From Bacteroidota bacterium (GTDB lineage: Bacteria > Bacteroidota > Bacteroidia > B-17B0 > Aurantibacillaceae), in NCBI GenBank assembly GCA_016194985.1, contig JACQAK010000043.1:1-36650 (forward strand): a stretch of DNA of 36,650 nucleotides, in the 5' to 3' direction. A program made the position numbers and the translations under genes. The notes beneath the pieces are model-generated. The model ran no database searches and was not told the origin of the DNA. It worked only from the letters and a program-made list of their open reading frames with translations. Numbering within the stretch: position 1 is the first letter of the stretch; each line of letters begins with the position of its first letter. Below are positions 6,131 to 33,920 of the stretch, one piece after another.

Positions 6131-6233
6131 AATTGTGGTTTTAGTACAAGATTTTGAAGATAATACATATTATGCCAATTAAAATAGTTATCAATTGTTA
6201 AATTGGATAGTTAAGAAGAGACAAATTAAAGCC

Positions 6234-6241
6234 TATTTTTG
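6234..6241 (+). promoter_or_regulatory. -7 promoter element for the FecR-N-like gene
   Basis: TATTTTTG (TAnnTTTG) ends 24 bases before ATG 6266. It overlaps the first possible start (ATG 6239), which argues for the later start. No well-spaced -33 box seen. Confidence 0.5.
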
Positions 6242-6265
6242 TTTATGAAAATTAAATCCTCGAAT

Positions 6266-6751
6266 ATGAATGATCCGAAACTATTAGTGCTGATATCTAA
6301 ACATATTTCAAAGGAAGAAACCTTAGAAGAAAAAAAAGCACTTAATGATTGGCTTAGCGAAAATGATAGAAACGTTCAGATTTTTGAGAAGATAAAAAAC
6401 ACCTGGCTAGAGATTGAATCGAAACCAACCCCTTTTTTTAAAAGATTTACCAAAAAATATCTAACTAAAGTTGTTATTCAAAAAGCTTTAGGTAATCTGG
6501 TTGGATTTGCTGTAGCAATGCTTGTGAGCAATTCGTTTACACATTATGTAACTGAACGAAGAAATATAAAAAACTTATTTGGCCTTGCCGGCAGAAAAAA
6601 AATAGTGGTCAATGATATGCCGGAATGGTTTCAATATGGCGTGTCTGTTCTTTTAGGTTTTTTTGTTTTGGAATTGATCAATCATATTTTTGAGACTAAA
6701 AAACATATTCTTGCTTTGAATTTTATAAAAGATAAAATTCATAAAAATTAA
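6266..6751 (+). CDS. Small two-helix membrane protein with FecR-N-terminus-like domain
   Basis: A 161-residue protein from ATG 6266 (upstream in-frame ATGs at 6239 and 6245 would lie in or next to the -7 box). Residues 1-50 (LLVLISKHISKEETLEEKKALNDWLSENDRN as separate motifs: ISKHISKEE, KKALNDWL, IFEKIKNTW) read like the cytoplasmic anti-sigma N-terminal domain of FecR-type regulators, which binds ECF sigma factors. Instead of the FecR periplasmic domain it has two membrane segments (about 75-92 and 124-141) joined by a basic loop (ERRNIKNLFGLAGRKK). No ECF sigma factor gene lies nearby. The gene sits 21 bases before meaB, which has its own -7 box. A membrane-tethered regulator is an inference; it may be an unrelated family. 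Confidence 0.6.
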   Translation: MNDPKLLVLISKHISKEETLEEKKALNDWLSENDRNVQIFEKIKNTWLEIESKPTPFFKRFTKKYLTKVVIQKALGNLVGFAVAMLVSNSFTHYVTERRNIKNLFGLAGRKKIVVNDMPEWFQYGVSVLLGFFVLELINHIFETKKHILALNFIKDKIHKN

Positions 6752-6772: not shown

Positions 6773-7750
6773 ATGAAAAAAGCCTTTAATATTCAGGAAT
6801 ATACAGATGGTATCTTATCATCCAATATCACCTATGTGAGCAAGGCTATTACATTAGTGGAATCCACAAGACAAGAACATCAGGAACAGGCACAGGATAT
6901 CATTAATGCCGTTATAAAACATAGCGGAAACTCCTTTCGGCTTGGTATTACCGGTGTTCCTGGGGTAGGAAAGAGTACTTTTATTGAGAGCTTTGGATTG
7001 GAAGTGATTAACAGAGGGCATAAACTGGCTGTTTTAGCTATCGACCCAAGTAGTCAGTTAAGTAAAGGAAGCATTTTAGGAGACAAGACCCGGATGGAGC
7101 AATTATCCATACATCCTAAAGCGTTTATCCGGCCTTCGCCAAGTTCAGGAAGTCTGGGGGGGGTAGCCCGTAAAACAAAAGAAAGTATTATTATTTGCGA
7201 GGCAGCAGGTTACGATTATATTTTTATAGAAACGGTTGGAGTAGGGCAAAGTGAAACGGCTGTTCATCAGTTAACGGATTTCTTTTTGTTATTGATGTTG
7301 GCCGGAGCAGGAGATGAATTACAAGGCATAAAACGTGGTATTATGGAAATGGCTGATGGTATGGTCATTACCAAAGCGGATGGAAGTAATGCCGATAAAG
7401 CAAAACTGGCAAGAGCAGAATATGCACGTGCGTTGCATTTGTTTCCGCCAACCGAAAGTAATTGGATACCGGAAGTGTTAACCTGTTCCAGCACTGAAAA
7501 TAAAGGAATTAAAGAAGTGTATGATATGATTGATAAATACAAACGTCATACAACCTTAAATCATTTTTTTGAAACGAAACGCATGAATCAAACCAAACAA
7601 TGGTTGCACCAAACGATTAACGATACATTGATTGAACGTTTTTATGCTAATCCAAAAATTAATGAGGAGATTTTAAAAATTGAAAAACAATTAGAACAAA
7701 ATGCCATTAATCCTTATCAGGCAGCCATGGATTTGTTTAAGAAGATATAA
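6773..7750 (+). CDS. meaB: Methylmalonyl-CoA mutase-associated GTPase MeaB
   Basis: A 325-residue cytosolic G3E-type GTPase (ArgK/MeaB family). In the family it gates cobalamin delivery to, and protects, adenosylcobalamin-dependent methylmalonyl-CoA mutase. The P-loop GVPGVGKST is at 61-69, the AIDPSSQLSKGSILGDKTRM segment at about 89-108, the switch ETVGVGQSE at about 153-161, and TKAD serves as the NKxD base motif. Length is normal for the family. The mutase genes are not in this window. An eight-G run (7156-7163) lies in codons 128-131 and is unusual for AT-rich DNA. Presence implies that the organism uses vitamin B12, in line with the riboswitch at 32265. Confidence 0.96.
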   Translation: MKKAFNIQEYTDGILSSNITYVSKAITLVESTRQEHQEQAQDIINAVIKHSGNSFRLGITGVPGVGKSTFIESFGLEVINRGHKLAVLAIDPSSQLSKGSILGDKTRMEQLSIHPKAFIRPSPSSGSLGGVARKTKESIIICEAAGYDYIFIETVGVGQSETAVHQLTDFFLLLMLAGAGDELQGIKRGIMEMADGMVITKADGSNADKAKLARAEYARALHLFPPTESNWIPEVLTCSSTENKGIKEVYDMIDKYKRHTTLNHFFETKRMNQTKQWLHQTINDTLIERFYANPKINEEILKIEKQLEQNAINPYQAAMDLFKKI

Positions 7751-15692: not shown

Positions 15693-18440
15693 ATGAAAAA
15701 ATTATTACTTAGTGCTACAGCTTGTTTAACAATGGCAGTTTCCAGTAATGCTCAAGATGTACAGCCTTGTGGTACTTACCAAGCCCGTGAAATTTATTTA
15801 AAAACAGTTCCAGGCTATGCCGCTAAATTGAATGCAGCCGAAGCAGCATCCAAAGCTGAATACGAGGCGTTTTTAAAGAATGGCAACTCAGCAGCCAGAA
15901 CAGCTTCGCTAGATCCCAATTATACATTTACAGTTCCTGTAGTATTTCACGTATTGCATTTAGGTGAAGCTCCCGGTACTGGTACAAATATTAATGATGC
16001 CCTTTGTGCAGGCGCTTTAGATCAGGTAAATAAAGATTATGGAAGAAAAAATGCGGATACAACATTAATTGATCCATTATTCGAGCCTTTATATGTTAAT
16101 TCTCATATGCATTTTGTCCTAGCTAAAAAAGATCCAAACGGGAATTGCACCAATGGGGTAATCCATCATTATGACCCAAAAACAAATTGGGATCAGTCGG
16201 ATTTATTTAACTACCAATACAGTACTATGGCTGCTGGTAACTGGAATCCAAATAAATACTTGAATATTTATATAGTTAAAAATATTATAGGGTCTTCAGC
16301 TGGGATTATTGTAGGATATACACACTTACCGGGTACAGCTCCTATAACTCCGGCAGATGCTATTGTGTATCGTTATGATTTCTTAACAGGAATCAATGCA
16401 CGTTCTTTAAGTCATGAAATAGGTCACTGGTTTGGTTTAAGCCATACTTTTGGGTCTACAAACGATGCAGGAGTTGAATGTGGAGGAGATGACATTAGTG
16501 ATACTCCTAAAACAACAGGTTTCTTTAGTACTTGCCCTAGCCAATCGGTTAACTATACCACTCCTAATCCTGTTACAAACCCAACAGACAGTTCCGATAT
16601 TGTTTATGTATCTCTTGGAAATATGAAATCAACAACAGCGTTGAACTCATTAGCAAGCACTTTTATTCGTGACGCATCTACAACAACAGGAACAGTAACT
16701 ACTACTACTACCAAAACAATTAATATTACTGCTAATGGAACAGCAGGTAGTTACTCGGATTTTAATTATTTTACTTATCCTAATGATTTTGCTACCGGAG
16801 CAAAAACATTAACCATTAAAAGTTTAGCGAAGTCTGTTGATAATAATTATGCAGCAGCATATATTGATTTTAATAGAAATGGTTCTTTTAATGATGCAGG
16901 AGAAAATGTTTTTAATTCGTCTGCGACAAGTGTTTTAGGTACTCAAACTTTTACAGGAAACGTATCAATCCCTAGTAGTAATGGATTAATGAGAATGAGA
17001 GTTATTACAAGTAATACTCCCATTACAGGACCAAATGTAACAGTAAGTAGTGGAGAATTTGAAGACTATTTATTAAATGTTAATTTAGCATCTTGCGACT
17101 CTATCAGACCTAATATCGAAAATATTATGGATTATTCTGGTTGTCCAAGAATGTTTACCAAAGAACAAACTAAGAAAGTAAGACAAACTGCTGTTTCGTC
17201 GATAGCAGGAAGAGATTCTTTAGTGGGAATAGCAAACCTTATATTCACAGGAATCTTAGATGCAAATGGAAACCCTACTGGTCCAAATGCATGTGCTCCT
17301 GTAGCTGACTTTGCATCCAATAAAGTAATTACCTGTGCAAATCAGTCGGTTCTTTATACAAGTACAGCTTATAACTCTACACCATCATCTTATTTATGGA
17401 CATTTGATGGAGGAACTCCTTCTACATCTACGTTAGCTGCTCAAAGTGTTACGTATTCAAATCCAGGAACTTATTCCGTATCTTTAACTGTTACAAATGC
17501 AAATGGTTCTTCTTCCAAAACAGTAGGATCCTATATTACTACAAATTGGAATGCTCCACCAACTACATTGCCTTATTTTGAAGGTTTTGAAAGTGGTCAA
17601 TGGTGGCCGGCAGGTATGACCGTTGTTAACCCTGATTTAGGAACACCATCTTGGTCTTTATCTCCTTACGGAGCAGGCCCAACCGGAGCATCTTCTGTTT
17701 CTATTGTGTTACCAAATGCGAACTCTGTTAGTGGATTCCCGGGATATAACGCAAATGTTGATATATTAGAAACGCCATCTTTTGATTTTACTAATACTTC
17801 TAACATTTCTTTCTCTTTTGATTATTCTTTTGCCAGAAAAACTGGTGTAACACAGGATACATTTAAATTACAATACAGCTTGGATTGTGGTGGTTCATGG
17901 GTTTCTATGCCTGCTGGCCCTACAGCTGCTCAAATGGCTGTGAGTGGTGGAACTGTAAATGCACCATATATTCCATGGAGCTCAGCAACAACTTCAGTTG
18001 TTCCAAATCCTAAATGGGTTACCAAATCAATTCCTTCAACCGTTTTAGGTGTATTAACCAATAAGAGAAGTGTTAAATTCCGTTTTTGGTTCCAAAATGA
18101 TGTAGCAACCGGAAAATCTCAAAACCTTTATATAGATAATATCAATATATCTGGTACAGTAGGCCTTCATGAGTTTGAAAATTCATTGTCTCTGGCTATT
18201 TATCCTAATCCTACAAGCTCATCATCTTCTATTGAGTTTATATCACCTTATAATTCTAAAGTGGATATATTGGTGTATGATGTGATGGGTAGAATGGTTG
18301 AACAGGGAAGTGTAGCCGGTTCGGCAGGGGTAGAATCCAAATATACCGTAAATACTTCTTCTCAGTTAAAACCAGGTATTTACTTTATTACCATTGGTAT
18401 TGAAGGAAGAAAAGTAACTAAAAAATTAATTATCGAGTAA
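15693..18440 (+). CDS. T9SS-exported M43 metalloprotease with inserted GEVED domain
   Basis: A 915-residue secreted Zn protease of the M43 (cytophagalysin/pappalysin) family. Signal peptide to about residue 20 (SSNAQD). The zinc site is HEIGHWFGLSH with His241, Glu242, His245 and His251; the Met-turn is NIMDYSG with Met479, followed by MFTKEQTKKVR. The 228 residues between them contain a complete GEVED-like domain (about 340-464: SYSDFNYF ... AAYIDFNRNGSF ... GEFEDYLLNV). After the protease come a PKD domain (about 538-618), a MAM/concanavalin-like beta domain (about 625-822, start YFEGFESGQWWP) and a type A T9SS sorting domain (about 833-915: LAIYPNPTS ... LKPGIYFITI). Expected to be secreted or surface-anchored and to degrade extracellular protein. 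Monocistronic, with a strong promoter and terminator. Confidence 0.93.
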   Translation: MKKLLLSATACLTMAVSSNAQDVQPCGTYQAREIYLKTVPGYAAKLNAAEAASKAEYEAFLKNGNSAARTASLDPNYTFTVPVVFHVLHLGEAPGTGTNINDALCAGALDQVNKDYGRKNADTTLIDPLFEPLYVNSHMHFVLAKKDPNGNCTNGVIHHYDPKTNWDQSDLFNYQYSTMAAGNWNPNKYLNIYIVKNIIGSSAGIIVGYTHLPGTAPITPADAIVYRYDFLTGINARSLSHEIGHWFGLSHTFGSTNDAGVECGGDDISDTPKTTGFFSTCPSQSVNYTTPNPVTNPTDSSDIVYVSLGNMKSTTALNSLASTFIRDASTTTGTVTTTTTKTINITANGTAGSYSDFNYFTYPNDFATGAKTLTIKSLAKSVDNNYAAAYIDFNRNGSFNDAGENVFNSSATSVLGTQTFTGNVSIPSSNGLMRMRVITSNTPITGPNVTVSSGEFEDYLLNVNLASCDSIRPNIENIMDYSGCPRMFTKEQTKKVRQTAVSSIAGRDSLVGIANLIFTGILDANGNPTGPNACAPVADFASNKVITCANQSVLYTSTAYNSTPSSYLWTFDGGTPSTSTLAAQSVTYSNPGTYSVSLTVTNANGSSSKTVGSYITTNWNAPPTTLPYFEGFESGQWWPAGMTVVNPDLGTPSWSLSPYGAGPTGASSVSIVLPNANSVSGFPGYNANVDILETPSFDFTNTSNISFSFDYSFARKTGVTQDTFKLQYSLDCGGSWVSMPAGPTAAQMAVSGGTVNAPYIPWSSATTSVVPNPKWVTKSIPSTVLGVLTNKRSVKFRFWFQNDVATGKSQNLYIDNINISGTVGLHEFENSLSLAIYPNPTSSSSSIEFISPYNSKVDILVYDVMGRMVEQGSVAGSAGVESKYTVNTSSQLKPGIYFITIGIEGRKVTKKLIIE

Positions 18441-29710: not shown

Positions 29711-32128
29711 TTATTTAAGTAATGCCAATTGCAAAACTTCGGTCATTTGATGAACGTATTTGAAAGTTAATCCTTTTAAATAATCGGATTTAATATCATC
29801 CACATCTTTTTTATTATCGGCACATAAGATAATTTCTTTGATTCCGGCGCGTTTGGCAGCCAGTATTTTTTCTTTAATACCTCCAACCGGCAATACTTTT
29901 CCACGTAATGTAATTTCGCCTGTCATGGCTAAATGCTTTTTCACTTTACGTTTGGTTAATGCCGATGTTAAAGAAGTAAGCATGGCAATACCGGCACTCG
30001 GACCATCTTTAGGAGTGGCTCCTTCAGGAACGTGAACATGAATATTATAATTTTCGAACATTTCAGAATCAATATTCAATTCTTCGTTATGTGATTTTAT
30101 AAATTCTAAAGCCAGCGTAGCGCTTTCCTTCATCACATCTCCTAAGTTTCCGGTTAAGGTTAATTTGGAGCCTTTACCTTTTGATAAACTCGTTTCGATA
30201 AATAATATATCGCCTCCTACCTGCGTCCAGGCTAGACCGGTTACTACACCTGGTACATCATTACCCTGGTATTTGGCTTTTTCGTGAGAAGGGCCTAATA
30301 TTTTTGCAATTTCTTCTTCAGTTATTTTAGGCAAAGCTTCTTCTTTTACCACATGTACCGCCACGTAGCGGGCAATTTTTGAAATTCGTTTTTCTAAATT
30401 ACGCACGCCGCTTTCGGCCGTATAATTTTCAATCACAAATTCTAATTGCTTGTCGCTTAATTTGAGTTGTGATTTTTTTAAACCGTTTTCTTCAATTTGT
30501 TTAGGCAGTAAATGCTGTTTGGCGATTTCAATTTTTTCTTCCACGGTATAACCGCTTACATCAATAATTTCCATACGGTCGCGCAGGGCAGGCTGTATGG
30601 TAGATAAATTATTACATGTAGCAATAAATAACACTTTACTGAGATCAAAATCATTCTCTAAAAAGTTATCATAGAACGTAGCGTTTTGCTCAGGGTCTAA
30701 AACCTCCAGCAGGGCAGAGGAAGGGTCGCCATGATAATCACTTCCTACTTTATCAATTTCATCCAGTATAAATACCGGATTAGCAGATTGTACTTTTTTG
30801 AGGTTTTGTAAGATACGTCCGGGCATAGCACCAATGTATGTTTTGCGATGTCCGCGGATCTCGCTTTCATCTTTTAAACCACCTAAGCTCATGCGAATAT
30901 ATTTGCGGTTTAAAGCCTTGGCAATACTTCGGCCTAAAGATGTTTTACCAACTCCGGGAGGACCATATAAACAAAGGATAGGAGCCTTTAGATCACCTTT
31001 TAGTTTTAAAACGGCCAGATGTTCCAAAATACGCTCTTTTACTTTTTCCAAACCAAAATGATCTTCATTTAAAACAGATTCGGCATGCTTTAAATCAAAA
31101 TTATCAACGGTATACTCATTCCATGGCAGATCCAGCAGGAGTTCCAGATAATTTGTTTGAATGCCGAATTCGGGGGAGTTGGGGTTCATGCGCGACAATT
31201 TATTCATTTGTTTTTCAAATGTATCGGCAATCTCTTTACTCCATTTTTTTGATTTAGCTCTTTCTCTTAACTCTTCAAAGTCCTGTTCATGGCTTTTCTC
31301 ACCTAATTCTTCCTGAATGGTTTTGATTTGTTGATGCAGGAAATAATCACGTTGTTGTTTATCCAGATCAACTTTTACCTTATCCTGAATTTGATTTTTT
31401 AATTCAAGCATTTGCAGGTCTTTGGTAAGATGGGCCAAAACCATGGTGGCTCTGTCTTTCAAACTCGGCACTTCCAGCATTTTTTGTTTTTCGGCCGAAG
31501 ACGCATTCATGTTGGATGAAATAAAATTCACCATAAAATTCTGGCTTTCAATATTATTCAGTGCAAATCCTGCTTCTGTAGGAATATGCTGTGATTTTTG
31601 AATGATCTGAATAGCCGTATCTTTTAAGCTGGAGACAATGGCCTGAAACTCCTCATCATTTTTCTCAGGACGTGTTTCTTCAAACCTTTGGGTTGTGGCC
31701 TTATAATAAGGATCACTTTGAATAAATTCTTTGATGCGAAAGCGCTTTTTGCCTTGAATAATTACGGTGGTATTACCATCCGGCATGCGTAGCATTTTTA
31801 TAATTTGAGCGACAGTTCCTACATTGTGCAGATCTTCGGGTTGAGGGTCTTCAATTCCATCATTTTTTTGAGCAACCACACCAATGGTTTTATCGCCTTT
31901 GTAGGCATCTTTAATAAGGTTAATGGATTTATCCCTGCCAACGGTAATCGGAATAACGACGCCCGGAAATAACACCGTATTTCGAAGCGGTAAAATTGAC
32001 AGTACATCCGGTATTTTTTCGGCATGCATATTATCTTCATCCTCTGCCGAAAGCAGGGGAATAAAGTCGCTGTCTTCGTCAATCATTGGATCAAAGGGCA
32101 ATTTATCTGAATCTTTAAAGAAAATCAT
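29711..32128 (-). CDS. lon: ATP-dependent protease Lon (endopeptidase La)
   Basis: An 805-residue cytosolic AAA+ serine protease that degrades misfolded and regulatory proteins. The N-terminal substrate-binding domain (SILPLRNTVLFPGVVIPITVGR) covers about 40-250. The AAA+ module has Walker A GPPGVGKTS near 387, LGGLKDESEIRGHRKTYIGAMPGR and Walker B NPVFILDEIDKV. The protease domain carries the Ser-Lys dyad Ser711 (in PKDGPSAGIAM) and Lys754 (in VGGIKEKILAAK). It has a usual length for Bacteroidota. It is divergent from the riboswitch gene and convergent with the YwqK-like gene. I see no exact TAnnTTTG box upstream, so a different sigma factor is possible. Confidence 0.97.
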   Translation of the reverse strand: MIFFKDSDKLPFDPMIDEDSDFIPLLSAEDEDNMHAEKIPDVLSILPLRNTVLFPGVVIPITVGRDKSINLIKDAYKGDKTIGVVAQKNDGIEDPQPEDLHNVGTVAQIIKMLRMPDGNTTVIIQGKKRFRIKEFIQSDPYYKATTQRFEETRPEKNDEEFQAIVSSLKDTAIQIIQKSQHIPTEAGFALNNIESQNFMVNFISSNMNASSAEKQKMLEVPSLKDRATMVLAHLTKDLQMLELKNQIQDKVKVDLDKQQRDYFLHQQIKTIQEELGEKSHEQDFEELRERAKSKKWSKEIADTFEKQMNKLSRMNPNSPEFGIQTNYLELLLDLPWNEYTVDNFDLKHAESVLNEDHFGLEKVKERILEHLAVLKLKGDLKAPILCLYGPPGVGKTSLGRSIAKALNRKYIRMSLGGLKDESEIRGHRKTYIGAMPGRILQNLKKVQSANPVFILDEIDKVGSDYHGDPSSALLEVLDPEQNATFYDNFLENDFDLSKVLFIATCNNLSTIQPALRDRMEIIDVSGYTVEEKIEIAKQHLLPKQIEENGLKKSQLKLSDKQLEFVIENYTAESGVRNLEKRISKIARYVAVHVVKEEALPKITEEEIAKILGPSHEKAKYQGNDVPGVVTGLAWTQVGGDILFIETSLSKGKGSKLTLTGNLGDVMKESATLALEFIKSHNEELNIDSEMFENYNIHVHVPEGATPKDGPSAGIAMLTSLTSALTKRKVKKHLAMTGEITLRGKVLPVGGIKEKILAAKRAGIKEIILCADNKKDVDDIKSDYLKGLTFKYVHQMTEVLQLALLK

Positions 32129-32264
32129 CTTAGTTGTTTTTTTGTACGGTATACAATATACGATTATTATGCCATGCCTGTTTTAGGACTTTGTGGCAGA
32201 TACCTGAATTTTAACGAATTTAACTTTAATGGGGAAAATTGAACCAAAAAATACTATTTTTACC

Positions 32265-32397
32265 ATGTTGGAAAAGGGAATTTGGTGTAAATCCAATACT
32301 GTACCCGCAGCTGTAAGTTCTATGGAAGTTATGCATTTGGCCACTGTTTAAATATGGGAAGGCGCATAGCAGGAACAAGTCAGAAGACCTCCCAATA
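32265..32397 (+). ncRNA. Cobalamin (adenosylcobalamin-type) riboswitch
   Basis: Directly upstream of the T9SS gene. Conserved blocks in order: GGGAATTTGGTG, AAATCC, CTGTACCCGCAGCTGTAAG, GGCCACTGT, GGGAAGGCGCATAGCAGG and the 3' B12 box AGTCAGAAGACCT at 32378-32390. A P1 stem can form from 32265-32270 with 32392-32397. In the known class, binding of adenosylcobalamin turns the downstream gene off, by terminator or by hiding the translation start. The region 32398-32452 holds the expression platform; no strong T-run terminator is seen there, so translational control is more likely. A TATTTTTA near-match to the -7 box is at 32255-32262. Confidence 0.93.
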
Positions 32398-32452
32398 AAT
32401 CGATGTTTAGAGTTTCGGGAAGAAAGCTCCTAAAGACATTGTACCTTTTTAA

Positions 32453-33439
32453 ATGAAACATACTTTTTATGTGAGTGTTATTGCCGGATTACTTTTTACC
32501 GGAACCACTGTCAATGCCCAGTTTGCACCATCTGTCGATGAACCCGGCACTACTGCTATGTATAAGGATAGTTCCGCTTTTGTTGAATGGGCAAGTACAG
32601 GAAAAATTATTCGGGGCTTGCAGGATATATCTATGCCAGGTATGGGCTATACCAATGTAGGCGATAGTACTTCTGCTTTTGGTATTGCCGGAACAACGGG
32701 AGTAGTGAGTTTGGGTGATGGAGGGATTGCAATATTGGGATTTTCAGCTCCCATTAGCGACGACGCAGGACCTGATTTTGCCGTTTTTGAGAATAGTTTT
32801 AATGATTCATTTCTGGAACTGGCATTTGTAGAAGTAAGTAGCGACGGTATTCATTTCTTTCGTTTTCCGGCTACCAGTAATACGGATACAACTATTCAAA
32901 CAGCCGGCTTTGGTGCAACGGATGCTTCATCGATAAATAATTTGGCAGGAAAATACCGCGGCTTATATGGTACTCCTTTTGATTTGGATGATATTCCCGA
33001 TGATGCGCTGTTAAATAAACAAGCCATTACTCATGTCAAAATTATAGATGTGGTAGGTTGTATTCAAAATCAGTATGCTACACGGGATGTTAATCATCAC
33101 AAAGTAAATGATCCCTGGCCAACAGGTTTTGGCAGCGGAGGATTTGATCTGGATGCCGTAGGTGTTATTCATCAACAGGCTCAGGTTGGGATTAAAGAGT
33201 TGGTATTAGGTCAGGTATCTGTTTATCCTAATCCGGCAACAGATGTTTTATTTGTATCAATGACTAATCTTGCGATGTATTCTGTATCAGTTACTAATTT
33301 GATGGGCGAGCTTGTATTGCAGACCGATAACAACATCAATACGGCTGGTTTGAATATAAATGAGCTAAAGCAGGGCGTATATATTCTTACAATTACGGCT
33401 AATGGTCAACAGAGGAAACTTAAGTTTGTAAAGTCTTAA
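32453..33439 (+). CDS. B12-riboswitch-controlled T9SS-exported surface protein
   Basis: A 328-residue secreted protein: signal peptide to about residue 22 (GTTVNAQF), an N-terminal beta-rich domain (about 23-245) and a type A T9SS sorting domain (about 253-328: VSVYPNPATDVLF ... NELKQGVYILTITANG). The N-terminal domain has GIAGTTGVVSLGDGGIAILGF, DDAGPDFAVFENSF and LAFVEVSSDGIHFFRFP, a pattern of surface proteins that I recall beside cobalamin uptake genes in Bacteroidota. Control by a B12 riboswitch makes capture or processing of cobalamin or a related corrinoid at the cell surface the natural inference; binding is not shown by sequence. No btuB-type receptor lies next to it, which is unusual. 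Stop is one base from the stop of the opposite gene. Confidence 0.88.
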   Translation: MKHTFYVSVIAGLLFTGTTVNAQFAPSVDEPGTTAMYKDSSAFVEWASTGKIIRGLQDISMPGMGYTNVGDSTSAFGIAGTTGVVSLGDGGIAILGFSAPISDDAGPDFAVFENSFNDSFLELAFVEVSSDGIHFFRFPATSNTDTTIQTAGFGATDASSINNLAGKYRGLYGTPFDLDDIPDDALLNKQAITHVKIIDVVGCIQNQYATRDVNHHKVNDPWPTGFGSGGFDLDAVGVIHQQAQVGIKELVLGQVSVYPNPATDVLFVSMTNLAMYSVSVTNLMGELVLQTDNNINTAGLNINELKQGVYILTITANGQQRKLKFVKS

Positions 33440-33440
33440 C

Positions 33441-33920
33441 TTAAGAAAACCACGATTTAAAAGAATCGTAGAAGAACAGAAAGATAAAGTATAAAATGAA
33501 GCACCAGGCAATGGCAGAGATGCTTAAATAAATAATGACTTTTTTCTTGTCTTTGTAAAAACGTTCTGCTAAAAATGCCCCTATTGGAATAGACAGGAAA
33601 ATAGGGGTAAGAATAGCAATGCCAGTTAATCCAAATCGGTGTTTGATTCGAATGACTCTTCTGTTAAACTTTGTAAATATTTTTTTTGGATGTTTGGAAG
33701 CAAACCATCGGTCTTTAAATTTTTCCCACCACTTTAAAATGCCGGCAAATAAATACGTGAATAAAATGGTTCCAAACACAGCACCGGTGCAGCTACTGGT
33801 GAGAGCCATCAGGTAATTGGATTTATAGATCGCAATTACCGAAGGAATTCCGATTTTAGAAAGGGAAATAGTACATGCTAATGCCGCGGAAATGAATTGT
33901 AAAACATCTGTACTATCCAT
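33441..33920 (-). CDS. Small multi-spanning membrane protein of unknown function
   Basis: A 159-residue protein with about four membrane helices split by a basic cytosolic loop (KWWEKFKDRWFASKHPKKIF, KFNRRVIRIKHRFG). The stretch RFGLTGIAILTPIFLSIPIGAFLAERF resembles the re-entrant segment of the small multidrug export / DedA-like membrane families, but the match is weak and I give no function. It is read towards the T9SS gene and ends one base from it. It may be transcribed with upp, whose stop is 30 bases upstream. Confidence 0.75.
   Translation of the reverse strand: MDSTDVLQFISAALACTISLSKIGIPSVIAIYKSNYLMALTSSCTGAVFGTILFTYLFAGILKWWEKFKDRWFASKHPKKIFTKFNRRVIRIKHRFGLTGIAILTPIFLSIPIGAFLAERFYKDKKKVIIYLSISAIAWCFILYFIFLFFYDSFKSWFS

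Follow-up and report, generated by a model that had tools for sequence, protein, structure and literature searches.

What does a T9SS-exported protein contribute when its gene stands behind a cobalamin riboswitch with no TonB receptor beside it? Capture of B12 at the cell surface of Bacteroidota has been worked out for the lipoproteins of gut Bacteroides, and the stretch of Bacteroidota DNA analysed here (the window, 36,650 nucleotides) carries a gene of this different kind. Our best reading is that its product, P0001, would be a T9SS-exported cobamide-capture accessory that was displaced from a btu operon into a riboswitch unit of its own.

A full-length cobalamin riboswitch precedes the P0001 gene

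A clear cobalamin riboswitch does stand before the gene, as a preliminary description of this DNA had claimed. In a cmscan search (Infernal) it matched RF00174 over the full model (positions 1-189 of 189) with 86.2 bits and an E value of 4.3e-20, against a curated cut-off of 31.5. The interval first given for it, 32265-32397, holds the aptamer core, but the full aptamer starts about 50 nt earlier (Table 1). It is the one cobalamin riboswitch of the window, and two were found in the whole 4.23-Mb, 94%-complete genome. The aptamer ends 42 nt before the start codon of the P0001 gene, and a P13-like hairpin sits at the border of aptamer and gene, ending 11 nt before that codon.

Table 1. Features of the riboswitch unit and of P0001, in window positions.
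Feature	Position	Strand	Basis
Cobalamin riboswitch aptamer (RF00174)	32213..32410	+	cmscan, 86.2 bits
L5 loop CCCG, kissing partner of the L13 loop	32304..32307	+	complements 32416-32419
P13-like hairpin, loop CGGG (32416-32419), likely expression platform	32401..32441	+	pairing in 13-sequence alignment
Gene for 328-aa exported protein (P0001)	32453..33439	+	ORF; 80 kept relatives
Signal peptide, residues 1-22 (VNA|QF), without lipobox Cys	32453..32518	+	by eye
Beta domain (NTD), residues 22-247	32516..33193	+	alignment of 72 sequences; AlphaFold2
FENSF motif, residues 112-116	32786..32800	+	N114/F116 align with BtuH2 Asn399/Phe401 (profile alignment)
T9SS type A sorting domain, residues 257-327	33221..33433	+	TIGR04183, PF18962

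P13 and the L5-L13 kissing loop are features of the cobalamin riboswitch class. Their pairing was followed in an alignment of 13 riboswitches, namely those of the window, of 11 relatives that also form lone units (below) and of the btuB gene of the window's own genome. The L5-L13 kissing cells were paired in 92.3%, the hairpin pairs 32410-32415/32424-32429 in 88.5% and the pairs 32401-32408/32434-32441 in 74.0% of cells, and in the upper stem of the hairpin both sides change in three of six pairs. Taken together, these named pairs were standard in 83.2% of cells versus 77.7% after shuffling, and none of 500 shuffles reached 83.2%. Slid by 1-3 columns the pairs were standard in 35-62% of cells. 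Covariation of the named pairs was 0.280 versus 0.189. The structure was drawn from the window row and the 13 sequences are related; moreover, two of the five measures stay within the range of the shuffles, namely the count of pairs that change on both sides (4, reached by 184 of 500) and the count of further pair types (17, reached by 434 of 500). The hairpin alone was no more stable than shuffles (fold z -0.53), the riboswitch of one lone-unit relative (L037) is degenerate in the hairpin region, and a search of the forward strand of 31900-33700 gave no terminator-like site.

P0001 carries T9SS export signals and a conserved beta domain

The N-terminus of P0001 is hydrophobic and has no lipobox cysteine, and the protein therefore lacks the mark of a surface lipoprotein that BtuH bears. 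Its tail scored 53.6 bits with TIGR04183 (cut-off 23) and 51.4 bits with PF18962 (cut-off 27). With the signal peptide assigned by eye, these scores bear out the architecture first described, a signal peptide followed by a beta domain and a type A sorting domain. T9SS machinery is represented in the genome by SprA matches over the cut-off; the match (G000 contig C215, 1997-8727) falls in two separate open frames of 1928 and 407 aa. A search of the same genome with P0001 returned 41 further matches, all within P0001 residues 194-327. The window also encodes a second T9SS cargo (15693-18440, forward strand), an M43-type peptidase with GEVED, PKD and a type A tail.

Beyond the T9SS tail, P0001 gave no Pfam domain up to E 10 (the filters remove most weak matches), and PF14717 (DUF4465) and PF16819 (the DUF5074 of BtuG) were absent from the Pfam list up to that value. 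Across the 72 rows of the NTD alignment Pfam gave scattered weak matches alone (best E 0.0044), none of them to a convincing catalytic family. In sequence searches of solved structures neither P0001 nor the 72-row profile picked up a relative of the NTD, and tblastn of a plasmid collection with P0001 found no matches. We recognised no description of the domain in the literature on Bacteroidota BtuG, BtuH, DUF4465 and T9SS with cobalamin, a search whose scope lay mostly outside subscription journals.

The AlphaFold2 model of the NTD, built from the 72 rows, has a pLDDT of 94.7 and a pTM of 0.92 and consists mainly of strands with few short helices. Positions invariant in all 72 rows include, among others, G67, D68, G70, D87, E92, N93, E101, E106 and Q128, and also D178, D191, N198, D199, P200 and D211 (these numbers count within the NTD alignment; adding 21 gives the P0001 residue).

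Many relatives of P0001 lie in B12-uptake operons

A total of 125 relatives of P0001 was found and 80 loci were kept (41-65% identity in the best segment). When BtuB, DUF4465 and BtuG of the window's own genome were used as single-sequence probes, 46 of the 80 loci gave a match to at least one (btuB in 39, btuG in 39, DUF4465 in 21) and 34 gave none. In 61 of the 80 loci the relative is preceded, on its own strand, by a cobalamin riboswitch (Infernal, refound by nhmmer), at less than 400 nt in 19 of them. Riboswitches carried over by coordinates were counted if refound by nhmmer, and L029, L035, L054, L074 and L081, for example, were scored as absent; some of the other 19 loci are contigs that start near or within the operon.

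Two gene orders recur. The first is riboswitch, btuB, DUF4465 and NTD, then btuG where the contig continues (L009, L011-L015, L018, L019, L021, L022, L024, L026 and L027, with a short extra frame in L011). The second is riboswitch, a gene X, NTD and btuB, mostly then btuG (for example L028, L030, L036, L043, L044, L047, L057 and L070), and X encodes another T9SS-tailed protein in all four loci scanned (L028, L030, L043 and L047). Five loci (L046, L065, L066, L069 and L071) have the NTD fused to DUF4465, for which B12 binding is proven. The NTD family is a regular part of Bacteroidota B12 loci, one that Pfam has not named. It is first because of the regulation, the operons and the DUF4465 fusions that we assign corrinoid handling to P0001, and the surface or secreted corrinoid-handling protein of the preliminary description is upheld by the same riboswitch, btuB, btuG and DUF4465 counts and fusions.

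A place in the regulon and operons of the Btu genes would also suit a helper with no cobamide binding of its own, working through contact with BtuB, BtuG or DUF4465 or by shaping vesicles or the cell surface, a role proposed for BtuL. As precedents, BtuL and BtuK2 of B. thetaiotaomicron, both in B12 operons, did not bind cobalamin (PMC12751083). For P0001 we consider such a helper unlikely, as the DUF4465 fusion and the distant kinship with BtuH make cobamide binding by the NTD likelier and, in the 12 genomes followed below, the NTD gene is not on the transcript of the receptor operon.

Other proteins are encoded directly behind the riboswitches of this set. In L028, L030, L043, L047, L060, L068 and L080 the first riboswitch gene encodes another T9SS-tailed protein (266-611 aa) for which Pfam gave nothing else at E <= 0.001, and these proteins are candidates for further B12 cargo. 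In L017 (6609-8234) and L020 (6636-8261) it encodes a T9SS protein with stretches of DUF4430, which we take to be related to the C-terminal domain of transcobalamin; the L061 protein, of the same length as these two, had no DUF4430 match. Among the NTD-DUF4465 fusions, that of L071 (7866-9584), a record titled Planctomycetaceae, carries PEP-CTERM motifs in place of the T9SS tail.

The B12 locus of the window's genome is split

The absence of a TonB receptor beside the gene, stressed from the start, holds within the window, where none was present among the 20 other proteins scanned with Pfam (out of 34 ORFs of at least 100 aa). The receptor operon is, however, elsewhere in the genome, where btuB, a gene for a T9SS-tailed DUF4465 protein and a gene for a BtuG-like lipoprotein come, in this order, after the second riboswitch. 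The NTD gene is absent there, and only 6 nt separate DUF4465 and btuG at the place where L012-type relatives carry it. The missing receptor is a local displacement rather than a novel type of B12 locus.

The same arrangement was followed in 11 lone-unit relatives (L003-L008, L016, L023, L033, L037 and L042). In each of these genomes a riboswitch precedes btuB. Eight of the operons can be read through to btuG and do not contain the NTD gene; the other three are truncated by contig ends. Counting the window, btuB-DUF4465-btuG without the NTD gene is seen in nine of 12. Five loci encoding longer proteins (L064, L067, L075, L077 and L082) were kept out of the lone set; each has a riboswitch directly ahead and no match to the Btu probes. 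In a tree of the quick kind, made without bootstrap from 83 rows (58 labelled and 25 without label, these five loci among the latter), the window falls within a group of seven rows, every one of them lone (SH-aLRT 99). The lone/operon label changes three times over the 58 labelled rows, and the well-supported branches require one change. From the receptor operon lacking the NTD gene and from these label changes we infer that the lone state arose by displacement of an operon gene, once to three times.

The gene had also been called a lone one, which is correct in that no receptor adjoins it, but a gene for a periplasmic-binding protein of the BtuF/FhuD type (PF01497; 35565-36413, forward strand) lies 2.1 kb downstream, with three minus-strand genes in between. 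In the PDB its product best matches an iron-binding protein (4e-16) as well as BtuF-type proteins (from 3.8e-12), and no clear signal peptide was seen in the frame as listed. Of the 80 loci, L003, L005 and L006 have a relative of 66-70% identity, likewise downstream; none was found in the remaining 77. This protein may be the periplasmic B12 binder.

The window's genome contains seven matches to B12-binding domains, and neither CbiD nor CbiC/CobH was found in the draft, which is 94% complete. It is probable that cobamides are imported by this organism. Among the other genes of the window is that of MeaB (6773-7750, forward strand; Pfam), the partner of B12-dependent methylmalonyl-CoA mutase. 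A Flavo-1 RNA (RF01705) is at 1583-1664 on the forward strand (49.9 bits, cut-off 42). Third riboswitches occur in some genomes. Weaker ones precede class I ribonucleotide reductase small/large subunit genes in L145 and L146 (Pfam for L145), and one in G002 (L144) precedes PF01497, FecCD and ABC genes, a set that corresponds in composition to btuF, btuC and btuD.

Occurrence of the domain among Bacteroidia

In 296 Bacteroidia genomes drawn evenly, a profile search with the NTD gave matches at E <= 0.01 in 118. Strong matches (205 bits or more) comprised 98 copies in 97 genomes, and the weaker matches listed were partial, mostly covering the core only. At least 47 of the 98 strong copies have a btuG-type gene within 6 kb on the same strand; for 27 such a gene lies elsewhere, and for 24 there was no btuG among the matches listed (down to E 3e-13). 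One of these 51 copies without a btuG link is that of the window, and among the other 50 a riboswitch lies within 700 nt upstream in nine and within 6.5 kb upstream in 19 more. Hence, at least 76 of the 98 copies are linked to B12 (47 by btuG, 28 by a riboswitch, and the window). The 22 copies with neither btuG within 6 kb nor a riboswitch are an upper bound, given the strict filters and the use of the btuG matches listed. In L149, which belongs to these 22, a partial riboswitch (6210-6287, minus strand; nhmmer, 1e-8) that is not in the genome-wide search results lies upstream of the NTD gene.

None of the 15 unlinked neighbourhoods examined, out of these 22, matched any of the three Btu probes. 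In two of them (L154 and L160) the NTD gene stands next to cobT, cobS and a phosphatase gene, as might be expected of an extracellular protein that processes or salvages cobamides, for example one preferring incomplete corrinoids. As cobT-cobS was present in just these two of the 15 and the NTD matches no convincing catalytic family, we regard this role for P0001 as highly improbable.

Kinship of the domain

In a Foldseek search the best of 533 PDB matches to the NTD model was 8blw_B, the BtuG1 lipoprotein (E 1.9e-3, query-length TM 0.48), the aligned part of 8blw_B being unspecified. There was no PDB match at E <= 0.001, and BtuH2 (7biz) was absent from the best 50 of the 533. One Bacteroidia BtuH homologue matched 8blw_B at 4e-59 and 7biz_A at 1.5e-30. 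About two thirds of the other rows among the best 50 are discoidin, F5/8C or CBM32-like proteins (query TM 0.17-0.39). These matches, together with the lack of any B12 link seen for the nearest sequence kin of the NTD (below), would fit an F5/8C-like surface lectin or adhesin that was recruited under B12 control and binds another ligand. We think this quite improbable, since the first match is a B12 lipoprotein and most of the strong copies counted above are linked to B12 genes or riboswitches.

Profile comparison of the NTD with BtuH gave a 51-column core of 37% identity (P 1.9e-5) scoring 42.9; none of 40 column-shuffled controls exceeded 19.4, and the reversed profile scored 15.2. The forced global alignment was weak (P 0.0029). 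According to the structural report, Asn399 and Phe401 of BtuH2 contact the B12 phosphate and lower ligand (PMC8941943). Both have equivalents in the FENSF motif of the NTD core, the Asn in 72 of 72 rows and the Phe in 68. Gln333 of BtuH2 has no conserved counterpart, and His476, Tyr510, Trp511 and Trp577 have no confident alignment to the NTD.

We dropped BtuH as the nearest kin of the NTD when other families scored higher in hhalign. LIC_13355-like proteins, the closest among those compared, scored 138.5 over 130 columns (P 4.6e-20), and tandem T9SS domains scored 120.2 (P 6.4e-18). Scans of 13 regions that hold such proteins (7 with tandem, 4 with LIC-like and 2 with OmpA-tailed ones) yielded no cobalamin riboswitch, and five LIC_13355-like loci had no phmmer match to btuB, DUF4465 or btuG. 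The Asn of the FENSF motif is present in all five LIC-like proteins compared; therefore, the Asn motif need not mean B12 binding. Because these families score higher, the LIC-like proteins share the Asn and no B12 link is seen in the regions scanned, the kinship of NTD and BtuH appears from the sequences to be of superfamily level and cannot alone prove B12 binding.

The tandem proteins form arrays in L100-L106, where T9SS-type proteins of about 470-990 aa mostly carry two or more distant copies of the NTD core; no cobalamin riboswitch was found at these arrays. That they are BtuH proteins was rejected because the one searched in PDB gave sorting tails and one weak unrelated chain, and because of the lack of riboswitches. 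An apparent homology of NTD and DUF4465 (first hhalign P 8.6e-32) was likewise rejected as an artefact because the compared set contained fusion proteins; with these removed the score was 17.3 and P 0.16.

Proposed role

We consider it probable that P0001 is an accessory of Btu B12 uptake, one that most likely captures cobamides and helps to pass them to BtuG and BtuB. At low intracellular cobalamin the riboswitch would permit P0001 expression, a direction of regulation taken by analogy from riboswitch reporter results in B. thetaiotaomicron (PMC12751083). The protein would cross the inner membrane by means of its signal peptide and the outer membrane through the T9SS, and would either remain on the surface or be released. 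Its beta domain would then, most likely, capture cobamides and help transfer them to BtuG and BtuB, both encoded in the second riboswitch unit elsewhere in the genome. The riboswitch, the export signals, the family context and the split locus are computational results; cobamide binding and hand-over we infer.

A more far-reaching version is tentative and, in our judgement, rather doubtful. It holds that the NTD family comprises T9SS-exported cobamide binders distinct from DUF4465 that take part in the B12 uptake of about one third of the sampled Bacteroidia genomes, and that the lineage of the window has made of its copy an extracellular B12 trap with its own riboswitch, unbound to BtuB or BtuG. 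If true, such a trap would be the protein counterpart of a siderophore.

As a capture accessory of the Btu system, P0001 and its family would extend B12 surface capture to T9SS-using lineages, and a domain without a Pfam name would gain a testable function. Two riboswitch units would let the capture protein and the transporter be tuned separately. The fusions, operons and split loci form a natural set for asking what each capture protein contributes.

Comparison with known systems

P0001 most likely works like BtuH or BtuJ and is filed in neither family. BtuH (BT_1956, BT_1488 and the C-terminus of BT_1490; 7BIZ, 8BLW) is, like the NTD, a btu-locus accessory under cobalamin riboswitches, with a homologous core to which the detectable similarity is confined. 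P0001 has a T9SS tail whereas BtuH has a lipobox, and BtuH matches occurred in 7 of the 296 genomes (one sequence, a less sensitive search) versus 97 with strong NTD profile matches. The LIC_13355 family lipoproteins (NF033170) are the nearest profile kin among the families compared and, unlike the NTD family, showed no riboswitch in the four loci scanned out of five. BtuG, a lipoprotein with a DUF5074 beta-propeller, is a frequent neighbour of the NTD but a different domain, and in the window's genome it is under the other riboswitch. BtuJ/DUF4465 (PF14717) has no detectable homology to the NTD after removal of the fusions, yet it resembles P0001 as a T9SS-tailed cargo of the same operons, sometimes fused to the NTD.
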